Assembly (NCBI GenBank): GCA_034190085.1
Contig: JAXHTS010000066.1
Span: 1-56,423, forward strand
Direction of reading: 5' to 3'
Source: Spirochaetota bacterium
GTDB lineage: Bacteria; Spirochaetota; UBA4802; JAFGDQ01
DNA length: 56,423 nt
Shown here: piece after piece, positions 39,788-43,503 of the stretch
Layout of the letters: every line of letters starts with the position of its first letter
Position numbering within the stretch: the first letter of the stretch is position 1
Position numbers and translations under genes: made by a program
Notes under the pieces: model-generated
Told to the model about the DNA's origin: nothing
The model's input: the letters and a program-made list of their open reading frames with translations, nothing else
Database searches by the model: none

Positions 39788-40420
39788 ATGTCAGGCACAC
39801 AAAAAATTGCTGTTTTTCAACAAAATAATAGCGGAGAAAAAAAAATCCAAGGCATAAAAAAATATGGGAAAGGCCTTATTTCTATAGAAATTATTTCCAT
39901 TGATTCCCCCTTGCCATCATTAATTGAGAATGCAAGGAGTTACCTACCCTCTTTAATACAGGCTGATCTTGTTATCGATTTTCTCAAACATCCGGATATC
40001 TCTCTTGATCTTGCCCTTTTGTGCAGGGAGAAGGATATCCCTGTAATCGCCTCAGGGAAGAGATCAGTGATTGATGGCGTCATAACCCCTCCTACCTGAT
40101 GCGGCCTCTCAAGGCAGGTCTGCCTTGGAGAATATGGAGTAAAATTTGGAGCGCCAGTTTTTTCTGTTACTGTACGCAACAATAGAATATCAGATATACA
40201 AGTTATTCGAGGTGCTCCTTGCGGAGCGACCTGGTCTGCGGCAGAGAGGGTTGTTGGTGATAGAATTGAGGATGCAAAATCACGAATAGGTTTGGAACTC
40301 CAATTCTTCTGCTCGGCTGATCCCTCAGGTTGGGATCCAATCTACGGGAAAAGCCCTGTTCATTTTGCAGGCAAAATTCATTCAACAGCGCTAACAACAG
40401 CCTTGCAGACACAATCATGA
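39788..40420 (+). CDS. dfsP: DUF166-family selenoprotein (DfsP-like), UGA read as selenocysteine 104
   Basis: Conventional reading stops at UGA 40097-40099, but the same frame stays open for another 106 codons to 40420. The downstream part is clearly the same protein: CGLSRQVCLGEYG, RGAPCGATWSAAE, LQFFCSADPSGWDPIYGKS, PVHFAG, all conserved DUF166 features. The UGA sits where the family has the first Cys of a Cys-Cys pair (PPT-Sec-Cys-GL). A SECIS hairpin follows directly (40110-40127). The full product is 210 residues with Sec104 and Cys105. DUF166 selenoproteins are known in databases as DfsP; the reaction is unknown. A radical SAM/SPASM gene follows 34 bp later. Without Sec insertion only a 103-residue fragment would be made. 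Confidence 0.85.
40097..40127 (+). promoter_or_regulatory. Bacterial SECIS element with its UGA codon
   Basis: UGA (40097-40099) is followed after 10 nt by CAAGGC (40110-40115), the loop AGGTCT (40116-40121) and GCCTTG (40122-40127), a perfect 6-bp stem. The apical GCAGGTCTGC is the same as in E. coli fdhF. The distance from UGA to the loop GGU (17 nt) is within one base of that in fdhF. This is the binding site expected for SelB. Confidence 0.85.
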
Positions 40421-40454: not shown

Positions 40455-41480
40455 ATGTTGGATATTAAACCCTGCCCGGAATTAATCTAGTTCGCTACAA
40501 ATGAATGCGATTTAGACTGTGTCTATTGTTGCAACAACAGCAATACCAAAAAATCGAATGAGCTCTCCACTAGCGAAGCTAGGGAGTTGATTCTTCAGGT
40601 GGCAGAATTTTCAAAATACTTTGTAATAGTTGGTGGAGAACCGCTGTTAAGAGATGATATCTTTGAATTGTTTGAATATGCTCATATGATCGGCCTACCA
40701 TGCAGCATAATAACAAAGGGAACAACCATTAATAGGAAACAGGCTGTAGATATGGCAACAATGAATGTGAATGTAAATATCGCTTTAGACGCAATGACCC
40801 CTAATGCATGTGATCAGTTGAGTCAATGTAATGGCGTTTTTGATAAAACAAAGGAAGCGATTGATATTTGTCATGAGTTTGGCATCCTACAAGGTATTAC
40901 CTGCACCCTTACAAAACAAAACGCAAAGGAGACCTTTGATGTCCTGGATTTTGCTGCCAGCATCGGTGCAGAGGGATGCTGGATGAGTTTGCGTCCTTTA
41001 GGTCATGGGAAACACATTTATAATGACTATGCATTGACTAAAGATGAATATGAAAAATATCTGCATGCTTTCTTTCATCAAGCAGATGAAGTAAGTAAAA
41101 AGACAGGCCTATACTTCCATGTTTACGATCCAATATATTCACGTATTCTAGTTCAACATAATGTTCAGGCTTTAAAGATATGCGGTCTGGGGAAATATCT
41201 GAATGTTGACGCTGAAGGCAATGTTATAGCCTGTCTCTTTACAGATCTTCATGTTGGGAACATCAGGGAAAAGTCCATTAAGGAGATATGGTTGGAGGTA
41301 ATATCCGATCAATTTTTTCAAAAAATCCATGATCCCACAAATCTTAAGGGCGCCTGTGGGGAGTGCCGTTACAACTCAATATGTGGTGGTTGTCGAGCTC
41401 GTGCATTTCAACTAACAGGAGACTGGTTTGCCTCTGATCCTGCCTGTTATTATACTATGTCAACTGATAGTAAAACATAA
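40455..41480 (+). pseudogene. Radical SAM/SPASM protein with an in-frame UAG at codon 12
   Basis: From the ATG at 40455 the frame reads MLDIKPCPELI, then TAG (40488-40490), then FATNECDLDCVYCCNN. The radical SAM motif CDLDCVYC thus lies just behind the stop, and no start codon lies between. Downstream the frame is intact to 41480: GGEPLL, a core barrel, and a C-terminal SPASM region with CGLGKYLNVDAEGNV and GECRYNSICGGC. About 341 residues in all. Relatives normally have an aromatic residue at the stop position, so TGG to TAG is the simplest explanation: a nonsense mutation or sequencing error. UAG recoding is possible but less likely, because other genes here end in TAG. It follows the DUF166 selenoprotein gene and probably acts with it. 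Confidence 0.8.
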
Positions 41481-42783: not shown

Positions 42784-43503
42784 ATGCCAACAATAAGCGA
42801 TATTAAAAGGCATGGGAAGAGGAGGTTTTATCTATTATTTGGTTCCATAGCGCTGATTTTTACATTTGCCGGAAGCATCGTTGCTGTAAAACTAATGAAT
42901 GTTGTTCCTCAAAAAATTGGTTTCAAGGATTTACAATTTGTAAATCTTAATAGACCCTTATGCGAGGATTGTCATGGAGATTCTCTTGCTGATGCTCATC
43001 ACGGCACAAAAAATGCTATTTCTGGGAAGTGTAATGCATGTCACAATATTTCAACCAAGGCTGGAAGTGTTGGAGTATCATTGGAAAAAAATTGTATACA
43101 GTGTCACAAGAAGAGCCCTCACCATAATACAGAGGCCGCGTTAAATAAAGAATGTACATCTTGCCATGACACACCAGGTGTAAGCGATTATAGCCAAAAA
43201 GTGCCATCCTATAAACCTTCAAAAATTACTCCCACAACGGATAGCTGTAAGAACTGTCATCTTGAAGGCACTGTAGATGGACAGAAGGTTGTCAGCATTA
43301 AGAAGGCTCATCATGGAATTTCCCTTAAGGGGTGTGATATTTGTCATGACATGAAAAACAAGGCCAGTAAAGACATAAGAATTTGCGAAAGATGTCATGA
43401 TGTTAAATCCCTACATGAGGTATTGCCACATGTTGAAAAGAGCGCATGTATTGGATGCCATGGGGATAAAATTGTTCCTGAAAAACCAAAACCAAAATCA
43501 TAA
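42784..43503 (+). CDS. Membrane-anchored octaheme c-type cytochrome
   Basis: This 239-residue protein has an N-terminal anchor (about 14-37, after the basic HGKRRF) and eight CxxCH heme sites at residues 60, 83, 104, 124, 155, 184, 201 and 222. HH pairs (72-73, 113-114, 176-177) offer axial ligands, so bis-histidine hemes are likely. The pattern resembles NapC/NirT-associated and class III-type electron carriers, but no named family was recognised. GGAG 7 nt before the ATG supports the start, and a terminator follows at 43581. As a single-gene unit it could link the quinone pool or the bc complex to periplasmic acceptors (inference). Confidence 0.88.
   Translation: MPTISDIKRHGKRRFYLLFGSIALIFTFAGSIVAVKLMNVVPQKIGFKDLQFVNLNRPLCEDCHGDSLADAHHGTKNAISGKCNACHNISTKAGSVGVSLEKNCIQCHKKSPHHNTEAALNKECTSCHDTPGVSDYSQKVPSYKPSKITPTTDSCKNCHLEGTVDGQKVVSIKKAHHGISLKGCDICHDMKNKASKDIRICERCHDVKSLHEVLPHVEKSACIGCHGDKIVPEKPKPKS

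Follow-up and report, generated by a model that had tools for sequence, protein, structure and literature searches.

The gene dfsP, found in a stretch of 56,423 nucleotides from the genome of a Spirochaetota bacterium (the window), is, judged by its sequence, close to certain to encode a selenoprotein. An in-frame UGA takes the place of the first cysteine of a conserved cysteine pair and is followed directly by a candidate bacterial SECIS hairpin. The selenoprotein reading, the family membership, the conserved residues and the gene context of dfsP were established computationally, and the features on which they rest are summarized in Table 1.

Table 1. Positions of the features discussed, in the window unless a locus or genome contig is named
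Feature	Position	Strand	Basis
dfsP, DUF166 family selenoprotein, 210 aa with Sec104	39788..40420	+	PF02593, NF041372, homologue alignment
In-frame UGA, Sec104, followed by invariant Cys105	40097..40099	+	codon comparison, homologues
Bacterial SECIS hairpin (candidate)	40100..40131	+	covariation; published bSECIS limits
SECIS stem, core of 6 bp	40110-40115 with 40122-40127	+	
SECIS stem, counted as 7 bp	40109-40115 with 40122-40128	+	
SECIS loop	40116-40121	+	
Decamer GCAGGTCTGC	40114-40123	+	
Cys145, APCGAT motif; also in distant DUF166; candidate counterpart of IscU Cys63	40220..40222	+	alignments, profile comparison
Cys175, invariant in DfsP; distant DUF166 have Cys in the corresponding stretch	40310..40312	+	alignments
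His192, SPVHFAG motif; also in distant DUF166	40361..40363	+	alignments
dfsP stop codon TGA	40418-40420	+	ORF reading
Radical SAM/SPASM gene, 35 nt downstream of dfsP	40455..41480	+	profile matches
In-frame TAG in the radical SAM/SPASM gene	40488-40490	+	
239-aa protein with several CxxCH-like motifs	42784-43503	+	
selD with in-frame TGA (L028)	G000:C49:117329-118249		
NifU-type scaffold gene	G000:C5:15292-15663		
128-aa gene	L042:7564-7947; relatives in L041, L047, L048, L051, L055, L062, L063, L066		
Cys-only DUF166 genes beside acsE	L140:7222-8022, L138:4013-4771, L139:2176-3000, L141:3123-3926		

Reading frame and family of dfsP

The open reading frame of dfsP contains one in-frame TGA, at codon 104, and is otherwise open until its terminal TGA. 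Standard gene calling shortens the protein, as the first-pass annotation had foreseen: by ORF finding with translation table 11 it ends at 103 aa. The read-through product matches Pfam PF02593 (DUF166) with 154.7 bits over residues 9-207 (gathering cut-off 24.4), which bears out the earlier claim that the frame stays open over the remaining DUF166 motifs. It also matches NCBIfam NF041372, named 'DUF166 family (seleno)protein DfsP', with 322 bits at 203 of 203 positions; since this score exceeds the curated cut-off of 200, the dfsP product is a member of an already catalogued selenoprotein family. The sequence PPT(U/C)CGL that marks DfsP members, with Sec or Cys at the variable position, is present (42 sequences). 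The match is full length and the exchange of UGA for Cys is the one that the family name records; nothing defining sets the window copy apart, although it is at most 66% identical to every named homologue aligned (47-66% across 31 aligned homologues). DUF166 is listed among bacterial selenoproteins in two reviews, which trace it back to a 2007 survey of the Olavius algarvensis symbiont (PMC9312934, PMC13188914). A sequence search of solved structures with the dfsP product gave no match at E values up to 1, and no relative of dfsP was found in viral contigs.

Codon 104 could be compared in 42 readable homologues, the window included, and is TGA in 36 of them, TGC in four and TGT in two. The Cys homologues read PPT-C-CGL (PIT-C-CGL in L069) where the Sec genes read PPTUCGL, so that U takes the first position of a CC pair, just as had been proposed for this UGA. 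The TGA is shared by 35 other homologous genes, which makes misreading of a TGC or TGT very unlikely. A poorly resolved tree of the Sec and Cys rows places Cys at several points among Sec, with 5-6 label changes; this scatter suggests that Sec and Cys have probably been exchanged on more than one occasion.

The genome (4.27 Mb, 96% complete) holds all four of selA, selB, selC and selD. The matches to selC (70.1 bits), selB (312.8 bits) and selD (380 bits) are by score, and selA is a 491-aa open reading frame immediately preceding selB on its contig, its identity read from its sequence and position. An in-frame TGA interrupts selD as well, which makes selenophosphate synthetase a second probable selenoprotein.

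The SECIS hairpin and the genes downstream

The core of the hairpin pairs CAAGGC with GCCUUG around the loop AGGUCU and starts 10 nt past the UGA, in agreement with the 6-bp stem and loop AGGTCT described at the outset. The stem can be counted as 7 bp, and 16 nt separate the UGA from the loop. With a folding energy of -14.3 kcal/mol, the hairpin lies within all four published bSECIS limits, which concern stem, loop G, spacing and energy (PMC13188914). The first-pass annotation had further noted that the apical decamer is that of Escherichia coli fdhF, and this is confirmed: the window has a single copy of GCAGGTCTGC (7 of 100 shuffles contain a copy at any position), and the fdhF stretch that holds it matches 5,368 of 5,426 E. 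coli genomes, the matches listed being annotated as fdhF. In both genes the decamer lies at the tip of a hairpin directly 3' of the UGA, but the dfsP stem is shorter, its pairs differ and its loop varies among homologous dfsP genes (AGGUUG, AGGAUU, AGGCCU).

A single 61-nt fold of the window hairpin is not exceptional (z = 0.00), and the case for a SECIS element therefore rests on comparison across homologues. The stem pairs in 94.4% of cells across 33 TGA-bearing sequences, and its covariation in these is 0.308, compared with 0.167 in shuffled alignments (0 of 500 as high) and at most 0.14 in slid registers. At the third stem pair, for instance, 16 rows have CG, 14 have AU and two have GC. 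The Cys genes have lost the hairpin at the equivalent place. Arg109 is found in 36 of 36 Sec genes versus three of six Cys genes, and Gln110 in 34 of 36 versus none of six; such drift of residues 109-110 in Cys genes is the pattern expected if the RNA, and not the protein, holds those letters. An Rfam scan of the window gave no match.

The radical SAM/SPASM gene downstream of dfsP is AhbD/NirJ-like and falls below all equivalog cut-offs among the matches listed. Its in-frame TAG lies at the AWE stretch of its homologues, five codons before the CxxxCxxC motif. Pyrrolysine at this codon was considered and rejected: the best pylS match reaches 29.0 bits versus a cut-off of 178, and of the window's 32 long open frames, 12 end in TAG. 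With TAG serving as an ordinary stop and no pylS in the genome, this gene seems to be either broken or misread. It was also rejected as a functional partner of dfsP, the pairing not being conserved at other dfsP loci. Further downstream, the 239-aa protein is likely, from its motifs, to be a multihaem cytochrome c.

The interrupted neighbour could be taken as a sign that this stretch is decaying, in which case the TGA of dfsP would be a plain stop like the neighbour's TAG, the gene a 103-aa fragment or pseudogene, and the hairpin a product of chance. Such an explanation is highly improbable: it would leave unexplained a TGA common to 35 other genes, a SECIS that covaries, strong conservation on both sides of codon 104 and a full set of selenocysteine genes.

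Protein anatomy, relatives and gene context

Residues invariant in DfsP include Cys79, Sec/Cys104, Cys105, Cys145, Cys175 and His192. The Cys-only proteins of DUF166 (PF02593, COG1810) resemble DfsP in overall length and keep Cys105, Cys145, a Cys near 175 and His192, but differ in having neither Cys nor Sec at 104, where distant members carry Phe (PFCSL), in being located in CODH/ACS operons and, in several, in having a further Cys-rich segment close to the N-terminus. Since distant DUF166 proteins keep Cys105 next to this Phe, Sec104 is, on the alignment, an addition beside an old Cys. An AlphaFold model of DfsP (mean pLDDT 91.8, pTM 0.87) has a Rossmann-like N-terminal half and a C-terminal half that forms a two-stranded alpha/beta domain. 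In a Foldseek search of this model against the PDB, nothing reached E 0.001; it gave Rossmann-like matches on the N-terminal half and, besides these, scattered weak rows. The C-terminal domain folded alone without an alignment gave an unusable model (pLDDT 35).

The C-terminal half has a possible but weak likeness to the IscU/NifU iron-sulphur scaffold, which we treat as a lead. ISCU2 could be aligned structurally to residues 106-211 over 88 residues with an rmsd of 3.1 A and a Z of 7.1 (second row 7.0), a value in the range that the aligner calls common for unrelated folds. A DUF166 profile compared with an enriched NifU/IscU alignment, whose IscU query is a sequence that we take to be that of IscU and whose other rows come from the genomes searched, scored 26.2 at a probability of only 13.9%. 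This score is higher than that of every one of 300 column shuffles, of which the best reached 19.4, and of all 19 decoy families, of which the best reached 22.0, and should be read with caution because the alignment was enriched after a comparison with NifU only had given nothing: that narrower profile, of low diversity, was indistinguishable from column shuffles, one of 60 being higher and another about equal. The enriched alignment sets Cys145-Gly on Cys63-Gly of IscU. DfsP would thus share with the IscU/NifU N-terminal scaffold (PF01592) a possible C-terminal arrangement and one Cys in register, but it has an extra N-terminal Rossmann-like domain and the position of IscU Cys106 is not Cys in DUF166. 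PF01592 does not recognise the dfsP product in the Pfam scan, which gives DUF166 only.

Scanning the genomes of 84,980 species yielded 44 loci. The close ones are, judged by name, nearly all from sulphate-reducing Desulfobacterota, and there are a few weak or partial matches in addition. No close DfsP was found in the 392 genomes of the window's phylum besides its own, where the best other match is 29% identical and nearly full length and the remainder are partial. The absence of close DfsP from these genomes and its presence in sulphate reducers hint at lateral transfer of dfsP into the window's lineage. In the window, dfsP has no conserved neighbour and lies apart from any acs or fdh genes. 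In loci of the Desulfobulbales type it follows an NAD-type formate dehydrogenase (a nuoF-like gene and fdhA, the latter split by its own TGA) and the 128-aa gene. The product of the latter, roughly 128 aa long, is conserved, ends in YCTRW(V/I)RLDI and has no match in Pfam (searched with the long form of L041) or NCBIfam; its gene lies directly before dfsP and, in most of the loci that have it, after fdhA. At one locus (L055) dfsP lies between a formate dehydrogenase operon and acsB-acsC-methyltransferase-cooC; at another (L065) acs genes lie a few kb from it. An ABC-F gene (c16), a sensor kinase (c10) and a rubrerythrin (c3) also occur as neighbours; they were set aside as what looks like the local context of single clades.

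In all four distant genomes examined from the window's phylum, the canonical Cys-only DUF166 gene belongs to a CODH/ACS operon that also holds acsE. DUF166 comes next after acsE in L139, L140 and L141, and one P-loop gene lies between them in L138. All four have cooC and acsD, and acsB, acsC and acsV are present where the contig reaches them. Three of the four proteins have an extra Cys-rich CxxCGDxCxxC near the N-terminus, and in L138 and L139 a P-loop gene like the N-terminal part of phosphotransacetylase adjoins DUF166. ACS beta scores over the cut-off in 27 of 30 DfsP genomes (26 of 29 besides the window's; the exceptions are G392, G409 and G412) versus 22 of 97 relatives besides the window's genome, or 23 of 98 with it. 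The Fisher p of 8e-11 overstates this association, because the two sets come from different lineages and the comparison is confounded by phylogeny. In a 2007 survey, COG1810 (MMP0976) is among the proteins specific to methanogens and Archaeoglobus, and the same list contains a CO dehydrogenase gene of nearby number, MMP0984 (PMC1852104).

Possible function of DfsP

The first-pass annotation saw in dfsP a redox-active site, and the two reviews that name DUF166 give no functional lead (PMC9312934, PMC13188914); gene context now adds a pathway lead. DUF166 genes lie beside acsE, DfsP genomes are rich in ACS and some dfsP genes occur near fdh and acs genes, which together suggest a link of DUF166 and DfsP to the Wood-Ljungdahl pathway. 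We tentatively propose, as a reading that has somewhat less than an even chance of being right, that DfsP serves CODH/ACS and formate dehydrogenase metabolism as an accessory protein, in redox chemistry or in the handling of metal clusters, through a centre formed by Sec104-Cys105, Cys145, Cys175 and His192. The ribosome, with SelB and Sec-tRNA, would read the UGA as selenocysteine because of the hairpin directly after it. Sec104-Cys105 and the invariant Cys145, Cys175 and His192 would then probably make up a centre at the C-terminal domain that is redox-active or binds metal. Through it DfsP could supply or repair a metal cluster, or keep one reduced, in the enzymes of the Wood-Ljungdahl pathway, namely CODH/ACS and, in some genomes, formate dehydrogenase. 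That these five residues share one centre, what they would bind and the role of DfsP in the pathway are matters that we infer.

The main competitor to this accessory role is a selenol-based thiol oxidoreductase or peroxidase-like enzyme, in which Sec104 and Cys105 would form a selenenylsulphide in turnover and no metal would be involved. The adjacent U-C pair, the Cys found for Sec in six homologues and the fact that most selenoproteins belong to the redox class (PMC9312934) all speak for it. It is nevertheless somewhat less likely than the accessory role, given that no thioredoxin-like fold stood out among the structural matches listed, where Rossmann-like rows dominate, that the invariant Cys145, Cys175 and His192 exceed the needs of a vicinal pair, and that canonical DUF166 has Phe at position 104. 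A general role in assembling Fe-S clusters, as their scaffold or carrier, analogous to IscU and independent of CO2 fixation, would suit the possible IscU-like C-terminal domain, but it appears improbable in a genome that has its own NifU-type scaffold and for a protein whose rare, scattered distribution is unlike that of a general assembly factor and whose operon context indicates acs and fdh genes. More speculative still is a specific version of the accessory role, in which DUF166 would be an unrecognised IscU-like scaffold or repair factor for the metal cluster of CODH/ACS and the selenolate of DfsP, beside a cluster ligand, would take part in cluster handling; selenocysteine would then be found in a metal-cluster assembly protein.

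Cluster maturation in the Wood-Ljungdahl pathway is incompletely understood. As a selenoprotein, the dfsP product adds one member to a listed family; its role would matter more. The position of DUF166 after acsE, together with the ACS-rich distribution of DfsP, offers a connection, open to testing, with one of the most ancient pathways of CO2 fixation.
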